Source: an uncultured Clostridia bacterium (GTDB lineage: Bacteria > Bacillota > Clostridia > Oscillospirales > Acutalibacteraceae). From it: DNA of 60,265 bases. How positions within the stretch are numbered: the stretch's first letter is position 1; each line of letters opens with the position of its first letter. Positions 54,449-60,265 of this stretch are shown piece after piece. The notes under the pieces were generated by a model, which was given only the letters and a program-made list of their open reading frames with translations, was not told the origin of the DNA and searched no databases. The position numbers and the translations under genes were made by a program. The stretch spans positions 1 to 60,265 of the forward strand of contig CALWUY010000037.1 of NCBI GenBank assembly GCA_944384855.1, given 5' to 3'.

Positions 54449-54566
54449 ACTCCGGAAAATTAACAGAAGATATAAAACAAAAAACGGCGGCAAATTTGCT
54501 AACGCCATATAAGGCAGTAATTTGAAAACAATATTGAAATACAGCTTATGGGCGTTGCAAAGGCAA

Positions 54567-54614
54567 AAAGACAGCGTAGAAGGCAGAAATGCTTTTTACG
54601 CTGTCTTTCTTTAT
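54567..54614 (+). terminator. Terminator-like hairpin between HAD gene and the accessory island
   Basis: AAAGACAGCGTA (54,567-54,578) pairs with TACGCTGTCTTT (54,597-54,608) around an 18-base loop that itself contains AAGGCA/TGCTTT, with a short T-rich tail. The region 54,449-54,688 holds no gene and is probably the junction between chromosome and island. Confidence 0.7.
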
Positions 54615-54688
54615 GTTCAAAAATGAAATCGCACATTCGTCAAACAAGACCTTCCTTGCTACAATGTGAGTGAAGGAGGTAAGCGGAT

Positions 54689-54874
54689 ATGCGAAATCAA
54701 AAACACTACATAGCGATTGATGAAAGTGAACGGAGAATTATTCTAAATGCTCTTAATGCGCTGCGGAACAATCTGCTGGCAGAAGGCAGATATACGGACG
54801 CAGTAGATGATGTTCTAATCAAAGTAGTCAACGCACCTGTCAAGAAATTCAAAATCAGAATCACGGAGGTTTAA
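54689..54874 (+). CDS. Small conserved mobile-element protein
   Basis: A 61-aa protein, MRNQKHYIAIDESERRIIL at the start, with a central helical ALNALRNNLLAEGRYTDAVDDVLIKVVNAP stretch. Small proteins of this kind commonly accompany TnpV-like genes in Clostridia transposons; the function is unknown. GAAGGAGG precedes the ATG, and the next gene starts 4 bp after its stop, so the pair is cotranscribed. Confidence 0.7.
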   Translation: MRNQKHYIAIDESERRIILNALNALRNNLLAEGRYTDAVDDVLIKVVNAPVKKFKIRITEV

Positions 54875-54878
54875 GGTT

Positions 54879-55253
54879 ATGAAAAAGACAATATTTGAAC
54901 AGATGGGTGGCACATACGAACAACAGGGAGATTATCTTATCCCCTGTCTCGCCCTTCCTGCCAAAGACGTAGTGCCGATAGGATTGTGGGGGCAAAGACA
55001 CCTTCAATACATTAAACAACATAGAAAAATATTTTATACTAATTTGATTACAAGTGGTGATTTATATAGCTATCTTGCTGATATTGACGAGTTAGCAAAT
55101 AGCATCTATGAAAATATGGTACCGCTATATAAATCGTTATACCAAGTTACTGAAGAACTTAAAAAATCCAATCCTTTTGAATGGGTGCACAGAAACAACG
55201 ACATTATAGATGTTATTAATGAAATTATATATAATGATGTGATATTCCGATAA
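54879..55253 (+). CDS. TnpV-like transposon-encoded protein
   Basis: A 124-aa protein with the features of TnpV from Tn4451-type elements: FEQMGGTYEQQGDYLIPCLALP at the N-terminus, IGLWGQRHLQYIKQHRK (residues about 35-51) and a helical C-terminal half. The role of TnpV in transposition is unclear. No large resolvase TnpX gene is present in the window, so this is probably a remnant or a passenger, but it marks the start of the accessory island. A terminator follows directly. Confidence 0.85.
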   Translation: MKKTIFEQMGGTYEQQGDYLIPCLALPAKDVVPIGLWGQRHLQYIKQHRKIFYTNLITSGDLYSYLADIDELANSIYENMVPLYKSLYQVTEELKKSNPFEWVHRNNDIIDVINEIIYNDVIFR

Positions 55254-55260
55254 ACTAGTA

Positions 55261-55290
55261 AATGGCGAGGTGTTTCACCTCGCCATTTTC
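55261..55290. terminator. Bidirectional terminator between tnpV and the restriction-like operon
   Basis: AATGGCGAGGTG (55,261-55,272) pairs with CACCTCGCCATT (55,276-55,287) across a 3-base loop, 12 bp in all, with TTTTC after it on the plus strand. It separates the convergent tnpV and nuclease genes. Confidence 0.85.
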
Positions 55291-55299
55291 GCTTAATAA

Positions 55300-55794
55300 T
55301 TAGATTTTCGGAATCATACTCGCGGAATTAGGAGCATTGGCTTGCATATTCCAGATAGCTATTTTCATCTTTTTAATACGCTTACCATCACCAAAATCAA
55401 GCAAATCTTCCCTTTTATAAACATTCAAAAGTTTATTTAACGATCCCAAGTCCGCAGATGTCATTAAAAACGCTTCTTCCGGATCGATTAGTTTGCAGTA
55501 TGCCCACAGTTGTCCTAAATCACGCAGAGTTAAACTTGTCTTTTTTGCTTCAATAAAAAACAGTTTGAACTCATCTGCCTTCTTTACTATGCCGAGAACA
55601 TCAATTTGAATATCTACACCGATAGCTTCTTCTTGAATGATACCGTACTTTCTAAGAACTCTATCCAATCGTTCGCTGTGTGAGTCAACTACGATTATTT
55701 CCTCAGCAGATTTGTATTTATCTTTCAGGTATGCTTTAAGCCATAGCTGCATTGGTGGGTATAAGTCAAATTCTCTCATATCTTTATTCTCCAT
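55300..55794 (-). CDS. PD-(D/E)XK nuclease, probable cleavage subunit of a restriction system
   Basis: A 164-aa protein with a minimal PD-(D/E)XK core: IQIDVLGIVKKADEFKLFFIEAKK, where Asp65, Glu82 and Lys84 are the expected metal-binding and catalytic residues, preceded by helices with Glu/Asp and followed by LRDLGQLWAYCKL, the typical alpha helix after the core. It is the last gene of a seven-gene leftward operon with two DNA methyltransferases and overlaps the LAGLIDADG-like gene by 11 bases. I infer it supplies the cut and that its partner supplies sequence recognition. A Holliday junction or repair role is less likely given the context. Confidence 0.8.
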   Translation of the reverse strand: MENKDMREFDLYPPMQLWLKAYLKDKYKSAEEIIVVDSHSERLDRVLRKYGIIQEEAIGVDIQIDVLGIVKKADEFKLFFIEAKKTSLTLRDLGQLWAYCKLIDPEEAFLMTSADLGSLNKLLNVYKREDLLDFGDGKRIKKMKIAIWNMQANAPNSASMIPKI

Positions 55795-56671
55795 ATCCTA
55801 AATCTTTGGCTATTTGCTTCCACGAATCATAGTGTTTGCCTCTTATCTCGGATGGAATAAAGCCATCATTTTCGCTTGGGTGATGTGGTTTGTTTTTATT
55901 TCTTTCGCGGCCTTCCCAATAGAATTTGTGAGTTACTTCTTCAGGTTTTTTCCCCTCTGATTCAAGACCATCGATTAATTCGGTTGCAAACTGAGCAAGA
56001 GCTTCTCTTTTGTGCAGAACAGCAAATCCTATGGGCAAAAATTCATTCGCCCATATTTTAATTTGATGTTCTTTTTTCCAAAAATCAGGCTTCCCTTCCT
56101 TGAATTTAACAAGATTGCCGTCACGCATATTGGGATGAGCCCAATCTATTGCCTGTACAGGAATATTAACATCTTTAAGTAAACGACAAACATCGCTAAC
56201 CAAATACCAATTATGTGGCACTTCTAAGTAAACACGATGCATATAGTTTTTAAAAAAGTAGTTACTTCTGCGAATGTAACCCGTCACATCAGCAAATCCT
56301 TGCAAAAAAGATATCTTCTCATCACGAGTAAAGGAAAAAATTTCTTCATCAATTCTAATATTTTCGTGGGATACCGCATTGCCGATATAACGTAAAATTT
56401 CTCGCATCATATATTCGTCATTTCTCTTAGTGAAAGAGATAATAGAATAATTATCCTGCTGAGTAAAGCTCAATCCTGTGCCGATTAGAGGTTCTAATAC
56501 TGTGCGAATATCGGTTATACTTGCACGTACATATATTCTAACATCGTTATTATTTTCTGTTACCAGTTTTTTATGTGGAATTTCAACAGATATGGTGGTT
56601 TCTGATGCACCACGTCTCACTTCTCCATTGCCACAAATCATACCTAAAAGGTAAGACATCTCTAGATTCAT
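55784..56671 (-). CDS. LAGLIDADG-fold protein without catalytic acids, putative recognition subunit
   Basis: The 295-aa protein has two LAGLIDADG-type helices in the usual places: YLLGMICGNGEVRRG at residues 7-21 and SFLQGFADVTGYIRRSNYF at 121-139, each followed by beta-strand-rich segments as in homing endonucleases. In active enzymes each helix ends with an acidic residue before Gly (the last D of the motif); here these are Asn15 and Thr130, so metal-dependent cleavage seems impossible. The C-terminus (FIPSEIRGKHYDSWKQIAKDLGY) resembles a small HTH. Because the next gene encodes a PD-(D/E)XK nuclease, this protein probably recognises DNA while the partner cuts. The arrangement is not known to me. 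Confidence 0.75.
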   Translation of the reverse strand: MNLEMSYLLGMICGNGEVRRGASETTISVEIPHKKLVTENNNDVRIYVRASITDIRTVLEPLIGTGLSFTQQDNYSIISFTKRNDEYMMREILRYIGNAVSHENIRIDEEIFSFTRDEKISFLQGFADVTGYIRRSNYFFKNYMHRVYLEVPHNWYLVSDVCRLLKDVNIPVQAIDWAHPNMRDGNLVKFKEGKPDFWKKEHQIKIWANEFLPIGFAVLHKREALAQFATELIDGLESEGKKPEEVTHKFYWEGRERNKNKPHHPSENDGFIPSEIRGKHYDSWKQIAKDLGYGE

Positions 56672-56686
56672 ACAATCACAATCCTT

Positions 56687-57046
56687 TTAATTCAAGCCTA
56701 TTCTATATCCATTGTTGAATAATTCCCGAATAATTCTATTATCATTAAGACGATATAAATACTCGGCCTTATAAACTCTGTTTTTTCCAAATAAGTGTGC
56801 TATGTCAGCGGGTGGGGCAACAGGAACATAGAGCCTTAATTCCAGAGCCCATTTGTTAGCATCTTCTTGTAAAACAATTATTCCCTCGCTATATAATGTG
56901 ATAGCAGGAGTATGAGTTTGATTATAATCGTTGATAAATTTGGCCATTGTTCCCGGTTTTGCTTCTGCTTCTATAAAGAAGTCTCCGCCATTCTGCTTAA
57001 TATCATTTAAAAAGTCTAAAATTCTTTTTAGCATATGATCCTCCAT
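56687..57046 (-). CDS. Unknown 119-aa protein of the restriction-like operon
   Basis: I do not recognise a family. The sequence appears mixed alpha/beta with no signal peptide or membrane segment: MLKRILDFLNDIKQNGGDFF at the start, PAITLYSEGIIVLQEDANKWALELRLYVP in strands, and a KAEYLYRLNDNRIIRELFNNGYRIGL end. Its start overlaps the stop of the 151-aa gene by one base and it ends 15 bp before the LAGLIDADG-like gene, so it is made together with them, probably as a complex partner. A second ATG, four residues later, is also possible. Confidence 0.75.
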   Translation of the reverse strand: MEDHMLKRILDFLNDIKQNGGDFFIEAEAKPGTMAKFINDYNQTHTPAITLYSEGIIVLQEDANKWALELRLYVPVAPPADIAHLFGKNRVYKAEYLYRLNDNRIIRELFNNGYRIGLN

Positions 57047-57501
57047 TACAAATTATATCCCCGATCAAAGTCTGTAAGATTTGCAGGATGTAAGCGTGAG
57101 ACAATAGCTCGTATGGCTGCAACATTTTGATATTCCCCAAAATGGAAGCCATAATCTCTAACAATTTTCTCTACAAACTTGCCTTTATTGATTCTTCTCA
57201 CATAACTGGTGTTTCCCTCGCCTAAAAAAGGAAGAAGAACAGAAGGACAATTATTTATATTGTTAAAATAAATACGAAGTTGATGGCTTCTTTTCATCGA
57301 ATATCCACCTGTCGTTTCACCTTGAGTTATAGGGTAATATTCTTCATCAGGAAATTCTCTTTCGAACATAAACGCTTTTTCTTCTGGAATCTGTGCTTCA
57401 ATAAGCCCGATTCTTCCAGGGCTACATAAATACCCTAAAATCAAACAAAAGTCTGCGGTGTTAACCTCTATATCGAGAGCCCTGGATCCTAATAATGCCA
57501 T
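57046..57501 (-). CDS. Unknown 151-aa protein of the restriction-like operon
   Basis: I do not recognise a family. The protein is soluble and mixed alpha/beta: LDIEVNTADFCLILGYLCSPGR at the start, then EKAFMFEREFPDEEYYPITQGE, and a C-terminal part GEYQNVAAIRAIVSRLHPANLTDFDRGYNL rich in conserved-looking charged residues. No nuclease or methylase motif is visible. The first half (LILGYLCSPGRIGLIEA) vaguely recalls the YLLGxxxGxG helix of the LAGLIDADG-like neighbour, so a distant half-domain relation is possible but unproven. It begins 5 bp after the second methyltransferase. Confidence 0.75.
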   Translation of the reverse strand: MALLGSRALDIEVNTADFCLILGYLCSPGRIGLIEAQIPEEKAFMFEREFPDEEYYPITQGETTGGYSMKRSHQLRIYFNNINNCPSVLLPFLGEGNTSYVRRINKGKFVEKIVRDYGFHFGEYQNVAAIRAIVSRLHPANLTDFDRGYNL

Positions 57502-57506
57502 AACAT

Positions 57507-58280
57507 CTACTCCTTAACAAATATCAAAAGGTATTCATGAACCTTATTGATACGGAATTTGTATGGATATCCAAGCGGCCGCATATTATTGTAATCTGCT
57601 TGTCTATCCCAAATAATTAGATCGTCGTAAATGAATCCAATTTTTTGTAATGCTGTAGCTAAATCGCTATGCAAAGGATAAAAATTGCTTTTTTTACGAA
57701 TATCCATTACATTTACGATACAATAACCACCTTTTTTCAAAACTCTACTAACTGAAGCAAAAAGGTTTGATAATGTATTTATAAATTCACTATAATTTGC
57801 AATATTTCCCACATCGTTGGTCTTATCAGAGTAATTTACAGCATTCTTTTGGTCGGCACTTCGTTTCATATTGAGAATATCCCAATACGGTGGGGATGTA
57901 ACACAAATATCGAAGTGATTTGCAGGAAGTGTTTTTAGCACCTCAAAACTATCACCGTTAATTATCTGAATTTTATCATCTTTGCCCACACGTTGTTTTG
58001 CTATATTACAAAAATCCTCAGATAAATCGATTCCTACAGCTTCGCATCCAAGTTTTTGTGCAGCAACAGTTGTGGAACCAATACCATTAAAAGGATCTAA
58101 TACACGCGAATTTGCTTTTGAAAAAGTGCGTATTAGTTTTTCGCACAACGAAACCGGGTAGGATGCGGGATGCTTAAATTCTTTCTCTTCTTTTGTTTTC
58201 GATAAATCTCGCCAAATGCTAAAAGAATTTTGAAGCCACTCCTTGCCGGTGAGATCATTGCATTTTTTAGAGTTGTCCAT
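57507..58280 (-). CDS. DNA methyltransferase, N4-cytosine or N6-adenine type
   Basis: A 257-aa enzyme of the N6/N4 amino-methyltransferase class. Motif order is X (FKHPASYPVSLCEKLI, about residues 37-52), I (RVLDPFNGIGSTTVAAQ, about 58-74), then IV (DICVTSPPYWDILNMKRS, about 130-147), and a target region; TSPPYW is often seen in N4-cytosine enzymes. This X-I-IV order differs from the common IV-first arrangement of enzymes with TSPPYW. It overlaps the first methyltransferase by 14 bases. Two methyltransferases next to each other usually protect the two strands of an asymmetric recognition site. Confidence 0.9.
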   Translation of the reverse strand: MDNSKKCNDLTGKEWLQNSFSIWRDLSKTKEEKEFKHPASYPVSLCEKLIRTFSKANSRVLDPFNGIGSTTVAAQKLGCEAVGIDLSEDFCNIAKQRVGKDDKIQIINGDSFEVLKTLPANHFDICVTSPPYWDILNMKRSADQKNAVNYSDKTNDVGNIANYSEFINTLSNLFASVSRVLKKGGYCIVNVMDIRKKSNFYPLHSDLATALQKIGFIYDDLIIWDRQADYNNMRPLGYPYKFRINKVHEYLLIFVKE

Positions 58281-59679
58281 TGGGTATCCACCTTTTTGAT
58301 TGAATTCTTTTTACTTCACAATCAATATAATCGGATTCTTTTTTGTTAATACCGTATGCTTTGTACACTATCTGATTTAATTCCTCTAAACAGTCGAACC
58401 ATTCTTGACTCATATAATCATTGCTTTCTAATCTGCTAACTAAACTGAGTATAGAATCAAAATATATTTCTTGTTGATTAGTTGACGGAAGTGGTATTTT
58501 TTTTAAGTATTTTGCATCTGTATGCATTGTAAGTTTGGAGTAATTATAACAGTATTTGTACAAGAAAAGATTGCACAAGCGAGAATGAAGTATGCCTAAT
58601 ATGTAACGACACATTTTTTCGTCACCGTCCGTGAATACAGTAACTGTCTGCGTTGCTTCCATATTACCGCCAAAAGCAGCTATTATACCTGCTTCTGCAC
58701 TATAAATATTTTGAATAAAAACCTTATTACCTGTTGTAGGCACAGTATGATTTTTATACCCAAATTTACGTATTTCTTTTCCTGCTATCGCATCTTTTGA
58801 CACAGATTTTCCTCTACCAACATAACCATTACATAAATCAGATAAAGTTTGATATGAGGAAGTTAATTTTTTATAAGTCGAATAATCCTCTGAACAGTTA
58901 AAGATTAGAATTTCATCTTTGTAAAATGATTGAGGAATACTGCACATAGATACAAAGCGGTTGCTTGACAATTTTTTTAATTTGATTTTATGCTTTCTAT
59001 CTGCTGCACAATTTTTAACTGTAAGAATAATTTGCTCTCCTCGAACATTCTTGAAATAAGCGCCGATATCAATAATGGATATAATCGTTTTTTCTTCAAG
59101 AATAGTTCTTCGCAACAAGCTATATCCAGCTACGTGTAGAAAGTTTTTTGGAATTATGTAAGATACAATACCATCGGTTTTTACAATCTCAAAAGCTCGA
59201 ATTAATGCTGCCACAAACAGATTGTTGCCAAAATCAGATACTCTACGTCTGAAAAGATAATCACAGTTTAATTCAATATCACCCAACAAAGGAACATAAG
59301 GGGGATTACCTATAACAACATCCGGTTGATCAGCTAATTCAAATTCACTCAATAGAGTAGAAGCCGTTCTGCCAATGGAGTCGCAAGCAGCAAAAGAAAC
59401 ATTGTTAATGTTATTTAAGCAAAACTTGATAGCATTTTTATCTTGATCTGCACCAAAAAGGTTAACAAATCCATGCTTTTTTGCGGCATAAAGAAATACT
59501 CCTGAACCACAGCAAGGATCCATGATCACTGTATCTTTCGGAAGTTTTAGTTCCATTAACATTTTTTCAGCAAGTGGTAAGTCTGTATAAAAAACTCCAT
59601 TGTCTTTTTTATAGCTGTTTTCAAGAGAGCTTTCATATACATTAGAAGCATCTATGTAAGCGTTTTGAGCAAGACTCAT
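58267..59679 (-). CDS. DNA N6-adenine methyltransferase (NPPY type) with target recognition domain
   Basis: A 470-aa gamma-class methyltransferase. Motif I is TVIMDPCCGSGVFLYAAK (about residues 46-63), motif IV is DVVIGNPPYVPLLGDIE (about 121-137), and FGNNLFVAALIRAFEIVKTDG with SYIIPKNFL follows. The C-terminal half (residues 240-470) is a target recognition domain like that of TaqI/Eco57I-type enzymes, with KKIPLPSTNQQEIYFDSI at the end. It modifies adenine in one strand of a specific site. It follows the HTH gene by 15 bp and is the second gene of the operon. Confidence 0.92.
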   Translation of the reverse strand: MSLAQNAYIDASNVYESSLENSYKKDNGVFYTDLPLAEKMLMELKLPKDTVIMDPCCGSGVFLYAAKKHGFVNLFGADQDKNAIKFCLNNINNVSFAACDSIGRTASTLLSEFELADQPDVVIGNPPYVPLLGDIELNCDYLFRRRVSDFGNNLFVAALIRAFEIVKTDGIVSYIIPKNFLHVAGYSLLRRTILEEKTIISIIDIGAYFKNVRGEQIILTVKNCAADRKHKIKLKKLSSNRFVSMCSIPQSFYKDEILIFNCSEDYSTYKKLTSSYQTLSDLCNGYVGRGKSVSKDAIAGKEIRKFGYKNHTVPTTGNKVFIQNIYSAEAGIIAAFGGNMEATQTVTVFTDGDEKMCRYILGILHSRLCNLFLYKYCYNYSKLTMHTDAKYLKKIPLPSTNQQEIYFDSILSLVSRLESNDYMSQEWFDCLEELNQIVYKAYGINKKESDYIDCEVKRIQSKRWIPNGQL

Positions 59680-59694
59680 AGCAAGCTCTCCTTT

Positions 59695-59901
59695 CTATTC
59701 TTTTTCAATAATATCCATAATGTCTCCAATATTACAATCCAAGACACCACACAGTTTCATCATTACTTCCATTGATACAGGCTGATTTTTGCTTAGTTTT
59801 GATAAAGTTGTAGAACCAATACCTGCGGCTTCTTTCAATTGCATTTTTTTCATATTCTTATCAATGAGAAGTTTCCACAGTTTATTATACGAAACAGCCA
59901 T
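59695..59901 (-). CDS. Cro/C1-type HTH regulator, probable controller (C) protein
   Basis: A 68-aa helix-turn-helix protein: KLWKLLIDKNMKKMQLKEAA, then IGSTTLSKLSKNQPVSMEVMMKLCGVLDCNIGDIMDII. It is of the small YozG/Xre type that often opens restriction-modification operons. As the first gene, next to a promoter overlapped by a half-site of an inverted repeat, it probably times methyltransferase and nuclease expression. GAGG precedes the ATG at a distance of about 9 bases. Confidence 0.88.
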   Translation of the reverse strand: MAVSYNKLWKLLIDKNMKKMQLKEAAGIGSTTLSKLSKNQPVSMEVMMKLCGVLDCNIGDIMDIIEKE

Positions 59902-59936
59902 AACGAATAACCTCGCTTTCAGATATAACCATTTTA

Positions 59937-60044
59937 ATTATAACATGGAACTCGATAGGTTGCAATAATTTTGCGATATAAAAGAAAAAAATTCCCACCT
60001 ATCGGTTGTTTGAGATTGATTAACTTGGGTATTTGTGATACAAT
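59937..60044. promoter_or_regulatory. Divergent promoters with a candidate controller operator
   Basis: Leftward: TTGCAA (59,960-59,965), 17 bp, TATAAT (59,937-59,942). Rightward: TTGATT (60,016-60,021), 17 bp, TACAAT (60,039-60,044) with TG extension. CGATAGGT at 59,953-59,960 and its reverse complement ACCTATCG at 59,997-60,004 form a widely spaced pair: the first lies inside the leftward promoter spacer, the second just before the rightward -35 box. A single regulator could thus control both sides. Confidence 0.7.
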
Positions 60045-60065
60045 TTTAACCACGAGGTAGATTGC

Positions 60066-60265
60066 ATGTTGAATATTATTGATTTTAAACTATATAAAGC
60101 TATATTTGTGTCAGAAGGAAAAAGCAGGTTTATTTGCAAAATTTCATATAATGATGAAATCCTTGAGTGTTATGTTCCAATTACGTGTAAACTCAGTAGT
60201 TTAATATCGCTTGATGATAAAGAAATTTTGATAAGAGAAACGACCAAAGCAGCCAAACGAATTAA
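60066..60265 (+). CDS. SfsA-like protein, partial at the window edge
   Basis: An ATG at 60,066 after ACGAGGT opens a frame of 66 codons to the end of the window. The segment FICKISYNDEILECYVPITCKLSSLI, followed by KEILIRETT, resembles the N-terminal OB-like part of SfsA proteins (RFLARVEIDG-EEVECHVPN type), which carry a PD-(D/E)XK nuclease-like domain further on. The match is weak and the usual Asn-Thr-Gly in that motif is missing here, so this may be a divergent relative. It is divergent from the restriction-like operon and shares its promoter region. Confidence 0.5.
   Translation, partial: MLNIIDFKLYKAIFVSEGKSRFICKISYNDEILECYVPITCKLSSLISLDDKEILIRETTKAAKRI

Follow-up and report, generated by a model that had tools for sequence, protein, structure and literature searches.

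The 60,265-nt window analyzed here (the whole of positions 1 to 60,265 of contig CALWUY010000037.1 in assembly GCA_944384855.1, from an uncultured Clostridia bacterium of the gut) carries, on its minus strand, a run of seven open reading frames (ORFs; 59901 to 55300) which quite probably represents a mobile Type II restriction-modification system with a two-subunit endonuclease, in which a LAGLIDADG-fold protein (LAG) would read the DNA and a separate PD-(D/E)XK nuclease (PD) would cut it. A first-pass annotation of this DNA had described a seven-gene unit with spacings of at most 15 bp. All seven ORFs were found where it had placed them, and their coordinates bear out the gene order and the spacings, which are, from the helix-turn-helix (HTH) gene to PD, a 15 bp gap, a 14 bp overlap, a 5 bp gap, a 1 bp overlap, a 15 bp gap and an 11 bp overlap. 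The conserved core proved narrower than seven genes, consisting only of LAG, PD and two methyltransferases. The seven genes are:

59901-59695, minus strand: HTH, Cro/C1-type HTH protein, 68 aa (Pfam HTH_26, E 1.6e-18, above the cut-off)
59679-58267, minus strand: MT470, Eco57I/N6-type adenine methyltransferase, 470 aa, NPPY motif (Pfam Eco57I, E 1.8e-14; N6_Mtase, 2.2e-14)
58280-57507, minus strand: MT257, N6_N4-type methyltransferase, 257 aa, TSPPYW motif (Pfam N6_N4_Mtase, E 3.1e-35)
57501-57046, minus strand: P151, putative accessory protein, 151 aa, homologue of P119
57046-56687, minus strand: P119, 119 aa, homologue of P151
56671-55784, minus strand: LAG, double-motif LAGLIDADG-fold protein, 295 aa, Asn15 and Thr130 at the catalytic Asp positions; predicted DNA reader
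55794-55300, minus strand: PD, PD-(D/E)XK-type nuclease, 164 aa, with D65, E82-x-K84, Q95 and Y99; predicted cutter

Pfam gave no above-cut-off match for the last four of these proteins (P151, P119, LAG and PD). NCBIfam and PADLOC gave no convincing model for them either, the sole matches being those of PD to Cas4 (E 0.089 and 0.024).

Linkage of LAG and PD and exchange of methyltransferases

Gene linkage was assessed in a table of 89 of the 104 loci fetched. Fifteen were dropped, 11 for being short, superseded or lacking LAG (L001-L010 and L020) and four as duplicate records (L015-L018); near-identical or identical loci are still included (e.g., L011/L012, L013/L082, L091/L093 and L097/L098/L099). 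PD was found directly after LAG, on the same strand, in 89/89 loci. Methyltransferases, which were counted by family (presence, not copy number) when encoded on the same strand within 4.5 kb of LAG, accompany the pair in all 89 loci, with both enzymes present in 87 and one in 2; the two single-methyltransferase loci end at a contig edge and show just the nearest, cytosine-type enzyme. The linkage of endonuclease and methyltransferase genes that is typical of Type II restriction-modification was therefore found throughout (both methyltransferases in 87/89), as was the co-occurrence on which the first-pass annotation had made its reading depend. Since dN/dS was low for LAG (0.045-0.077, in the 3 of 6 comparisons with computable dS) as well as for PD (0.050-0.066, in 2 of 6) and PD follows LAG in every locus, this association is not a chance observation.

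Each of the 87 loci pairs one adenine-type family (MT470 or EcoRI-type) with one cytosine-type family (MT257 or C5), a C5-cytosine methyltransferase occupying the MT257 slot in other loci. MT470 is paired with MT257 in 46 loci, an EcoRI-type enzyme with C5 in 34 (fused into one protein in 16) and MT470 with C5 in 7; no pair of an EcoRI-type enzyme with MT257 was seen among the 87. When eight EcoRI-type or C5 proteins were checked against Pfam, EcoRI_methylase was matched in six (E 4e-109 to 1.5e-123) and DNA_methylase in seven (1.8e-68 to 7e-76), five of the eight carrying both domains; the remaining proteins of these two types were assigned by similarity to the two proteins of L010. The motif SPPYW was present in 47/47 relatives of MT257, NPPF in 33/34 EcoRI-type relatives and NPPY in all MT470 relatives among the matches listed (at least 43). 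An SPPY-type motif IV in the N6_N4 family points to N4-cytosine, and MT257 probably methylates cytosine at this position.

On a quick LAG tree, in which 25 of the 83 inner branches are weak, the methyltransferase set changed at least 5 times, the adenine slot at least 3 times and the cytosine slot at least 3 times. The endonuclease pair stays the same while its methyltransferases can be exchanged, provided that one is adenine-type and one is cytosine-type. The simplest reading would be one asymmetric target, read by LAG and methylated on adenine in one strand and on cytosine in the other. It had been suggested in the first-pass annotation that two methyltransferases reflect an asymmetric site; this is plausible, and it is strengthened by the finding that one adenine-type family pairs with one cytosine-type family.

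LAG has a predicted LAGLIDADG fold with both catalytic acidic residues replaced

Structure prediction gave, for the 295-aa protein, the LAGLIDADG fold that had been proposed, as a double-motif, tandem alpha-beta-beta-alpha-beta-beta-alpha arrangement over about residues 1-250. In active homing endonucleases an acidic residue closes both LAGLIDADG helices. LAG carries Asn15 and Thr130 instead in 97/97 aligned rows (the window and 96 fetched rows, a few records being fetched twice), and these residues fall on Asp residues of intein homing endonucleases in a profile alignment, which corroborates the earlier observation that both acidic residues have been lost. Of the 96 fetched rows, 74 were left at a 92% similarity cut, and the structure alignment comprised 70 of these 74.

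In keeping with a single target read by LAG, the DNA-facing strands, as assigned from the fold family, are well conserved, with values of 0.95, 0.86, 0.78 and 0.82 in the second half of LAG and lower ones (0.84, 0.73, 0.57 and 0.63) in the first half; R146, Y148, E150, H202, Q203 and K205 each occur in 99% or more of 90 rows. LAG differs between the two main methyltransferase sets at eight positions (at least 80% versus at least 60%); among these, positions 28 and 204 lie on strands and are conservative, and positions 177, 178 and 182 flank a second-half strand. LAG also has a conserved extra tail (residues 240-295). The tail motif HPxE...IRG (residues 264-280; 55832-55882, minus strand) persists in two very distant relatives.

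PD carries a conserved nuclease motif

Residues E8, D65, E82, K84, Q95 and Y99 of PD were found in 97/97 rows; the D...(D/E)xK catalytic motif is therefore present throughout, and the Asp65, Glu82 and Lys84 pointed out in the first-pass annotation are indeed kept. The PD alignment comprised 45 chosen rows, and the commonest Pfam match of the family was the YhcG_C PDDEXK nuclease (12/45 members, best E 0.0025, a weak match); PDDEXK_3 was matched weakly (E 0.024) in the distant relative L166. When the PD profile was compared by hhalign with genome-derived YhcG proteins, an E-value of 0.0016 (probability 16) was obtained, as against 0.24-0.41 for four controls, and the stretch E82-x-K84 ... GQLWAY of PD aligned with the corresponding stretch of YhcG. 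The window's own genome holds two YhcG-type PD-(D/E)XK genes (G000:C17 and G000:C74). A search of the PDB with sequence profiles of LAG and PD gave no match up to E 10.

Proposed mechanism and evidence weighing on it

In the mechanism proposed here, LAG has a homing-endonuclease fold which, having lost both metal-binding aspartates, would now serve as a reader of DNA alone, with the beta-strands of its second half contributing more to the contact than those of its first. In complex with PD, LAG would bring the nuclease to the site, where PD would cut; as there is one active site per PD, cutting would probably require two PD subunits or proceed as two nicks. MT470 would protect one strand of a short asymmetric site on adenine and MT257 the other strand on cytosine, probably at N4. 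The HTH protein would control the operon, and P119 and P151 would be dispensable accessories.

A broader reading, to which we would give an even chance, is that LAG-PD represents a new structural class of restriction endonuclease, seen in genomes from 11 named bacterial phyla, in which a former homing endonuclease, its cutting site lost, retained the saddle that reads DNA and turned into the specificity subunit for a separate nuclease. The target would have stayed constant while unrelated methyltransferase families were swapped, including N4- for C5-methylation at maybe the same cytosine, and P119 and P151 would be additional subunits, their fold so far absent from solved structures. If LAG is indeed the reader and PD the cutter, the LAGLIDADG fold joins the sequence-reading folds of restriction enzymes, and LAG-PD would be a natural counterpart of engineered nucleases in which a DNA-binding module is coupled to a separate cutter. 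The methyltransferase exchange would then be a natural experiment, predicting that one endonuclease can be blocked by N4- as well as by C5-methylation of the same site, and that a single specificity is common to two adenine methyltransferases of unrelated families. Provided that it is adapted to a short site, the saddle of LAG may also offer a compact scaffold on which to engineer specificity.

A number of observations count against LAG as reader and PD as cutter of one constant target. The commonest Pfam match of the LAG family, Hom_end (15/70, best E 0.034), lies below the cut-off, and DUF2525 (9 members, 0.01) and pEK499_p136 (6 members, 0.0055) beat it in best E-value. The family matches of PD are similarly weak, and some individual members score equally well or better against unrelated families (PPL4, 0.0016). 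The position of residues 177, 178 and 182 of LAG beside a strand may mean that the target shifts with the methyltransferase set. Of 140 confirmed loci, the scan across species retained the best 80, which tilts this sample toward closer relatives. In Type IIT restriction enzymes the large subunit also cuts one strand, whereas LAG is without a recognizable active site; D128 of LAG is invariant, and LAG may therefore have a cryptic active site. LAG might then still be a nuclease which nicks one strand through a rearranged site (e.g., D128, E150, H179, N181 and K200, or the tail HPxE...IRG) while PD nicks the other, as in Type IIT. Ten LAG residues (D128, E150, N154, H179, N181, K200, H264, P265, R277 and G278) are in fact retained in 10/10 rows including two distant relatives, and some Type IIT large subunits are described in PMC4081073 as both reading and cutting. 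Against this, the metal-binding acidic pair of LAGLIDADG enzymes is absent in 97/97 rows and Pfam finds no other nuclease motif in LAG, which makes a nicking LAG unlikely.

The last of these observations comes from an outlier locus. L165 (G681) contains LAG (33%) and MT257 (50%) homologues with no PD or MT470 nearby, suggesting that LAG is able to persist without PD, unless L165 is a remnant. Together with the small size of MT257 (257 aa), this locus would fit a LAG that is a shared specificity subunit like HsdS, guiding MT257 as well as PD. However, C5 and EcoRI-type methyltransferases accompany LAG as well, and their known relatives recognize DNA by themselves; we regard a shared subunit as improbable. 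Two loci look like remnants, L165 and L167 (G917), in the latter of which an MT257 homologue runs into a LAG tail; they could also indicate that the system is degenerate, or epigenetic and not one of restriction, and that its LAG and PD have lost their function. Such a loss of function is scarcely credible given that dN/dS was below 0.1 for LAG and PD in the five computable comparisons and that both genes are open frames in 89 loci. Two further outliers perhaps form a second clade with one methyltransferase: L166 (G772; L166:4931-7978), whose only methyltransferase is of C5 type and accompanies relatives of LAG (464 aa, E 1e-18) and of PD (E 2.6e-4), and L171, with a related but truncated C5 and LAG. 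Taken together, these four loci speak against a strict four-gene rule. With these alternatives considered, LAG as DNA reader and PD as cutter remains the reading we prefer.

Small proteins and putative boundary signals of the operon

The two unknown small proteins of the first-pass annotation are both present as ORFs and can now be described further, as P119 and P151 proved to be homologues (hhalign probability 98, E 6e-14, with a P119/P151 alignment of 45 chosen rows). Members of this family were found in 50/89 loci, and a P151 homologue is fused to a NOV_C domain, by Pfam in L010 and by similarity in 8/89 loci. An HTH protein like that of the window was found in 19/89 loci. The candidate signals at the operon boundaries are:

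59965-59937, minus strand: promoter-like site, TTGCAA-17-TATAAT with TG ahead of the second hexamer, just before the HTH gene
59953-60004: inverted repeat with arms CGATAGGT / ACCTATCG (20-nt arms, 80% complementary, 12 nt apart), overlying the -35 region
55288-55260, minus strand: terminator-like hairpin with a 13-bp perfect stem, directly 3' of the PD gene

With these signals on either side, the seven genes look like one transcription unit. These are weak calls, as promoter-like matches in the region are no commoner than chance (22 found versus 23.7 expected from shuffles) and terminator-like matches are near chance (4 versus 2.9). The HTH protein is the probable controller of the operon, with the inverted repeat as its candidate operator, and may be a control (C) protein, a type of small HTH protein of restriction-modification systems which binds at its own promoter.

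Mobility, distribution and neighboring genes

Window positions 54481-60265 are common at 99.88% to G090, a genome from the same family but a different genus, and positions 54495-60265 are common at 99.83% to Merdimmobilis hominis An559; Phascolarctobacterium ET69 carries most of the block at 86-88%. Just past the operon and inside the block shared at 99.8-99.9% is a TnpV gene (PF14198; 54879-55253, plus strand), which together with a 61-aa ORF makes up 54689-55253 (plus strand). In the Merdimmobilis contig a relaxase gene follows. An SfsA-type homologue (PF03749, E 1.8e-12) diverges from the operon (60066-60265, plus strand) and is complete in L015:14154-14828; relatives were found in eight other fetched loci, two of these being repeats of the window's block.

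The system is rare. Matches were found in 7/398 genomes of the family sample (the window's own and one spurious match included) and in 4/398 and 4/391 genomes of the phylum and class samples, counts that take in weak matches and the window's own genome. The 80 loci of the species scan comprised 53 from Bacillota, 24 across ten other named phyla and 3 without phylum, many coming from metagenome bins, where stray contigs occur. A survey of nine neighboring proteins identified HamA and a helicase (L010), an OLD-type ATPase-TOPRIM protein (L008) and an AAA_13 protein (L018). In L010, a viral contig, HamA and a DEAD helicase, which we take to be Hachiman-type, lie directly after the LAG system (L010:5349-9421).

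Comparison with known systems

The first-pass annotation knew of no described restriction system of this composition. None was found among the listed titles and abstract openings of literature searches that combined LAGLIDADG or homing endonucleases with restriction or that concerned fused methyltransferases, with REBASE, most subscription papers and preprints outside their scope, and LAGLIDADG does not occur in a Type II review (PMC4081073). As far as seen, the composition is new and the kind, Type II restriction-modification, is known.

A large reader combined with a small cutter and two methyltransferases has its precedent in the Type IIT enzymes BspD6I/BstNBI, BsrDI and BtsI, in which the large subunit reads an asymmetric site, the small subunit is without specificity and the two methyltransferases are separate or fused (PMC4081073). 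LAG-PD was set apart from these enzymes by their descriptions. Type IIT enzymes have two different catalytic sites; in LAG-PD, which is not classed as Type IIT here, a recognizable site is present in PD only, and LAG, its LAGLIDADG site being lost, may have another. The asymmetric site of Type IIT is compatible with the two different methyltransferases of each LAG locus. LlaJI is described in PMC11779793 as having an R1 specificity subunit, an R2 nuclease subunit and two methyltransferases. It is therefore like LAG-PD in its separate specificity and cleavage proteins and its methyltransferase pair. LlaJI has a GTPase-type restriction subunit, while the LAG-PD core is without an NTPase.

WhiA/DUF199 resembles LAG in keeping a LAGLIDADG fold for DNA binding, and differs in being a transcription factor with its own HTH domain and no nuclease partner. 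WhiA lost nuclease activity. LAG could by analogy be a transcription regulator of the operon, with PD acting alone, but this is very unlikely, as a separate HTH protein is present in the window, PD directly follows LAG in 89/89 loci, a PD of 164 aa would leave little room for site recognition and a sequence-profile comparison of LAG with WhiA gave nothing. The YhcG (DUF1016) nucleases are like PD in the E/D-x-K ... GQ...Y stretch, which aligns weakly; unlike YhcG, PD stands alone as a protein of 164 aa.

Some Type IIS systems, e.g., Alw26I and EarI, have m6A/m4C or m6A/m5C pairs of methyltransferases. They resemble the LAG loci in combining an adenine with a cytosine methyltransferase, each serving one strand of a site that is asymmetric in Type IIS and would be so here; their restriction enzymes differ. 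Finally, LAG shares the double-motif LAGLIDADG fold with I-Tsp061I, PI-PfuI, PI-SceI and I-DmoI over about residues 1-250. It is unlike these homing endonucleases in the replaced catalytic Asp pair, the coupled PD-(D/E)XK and methyltransferase genes and the extra tail. Active homing endonucleases are encoded in introns, inteins or free-standing genes that home to their own insertion site; the neighbors of LAG are methyltransferase genes in 89/89 loci.

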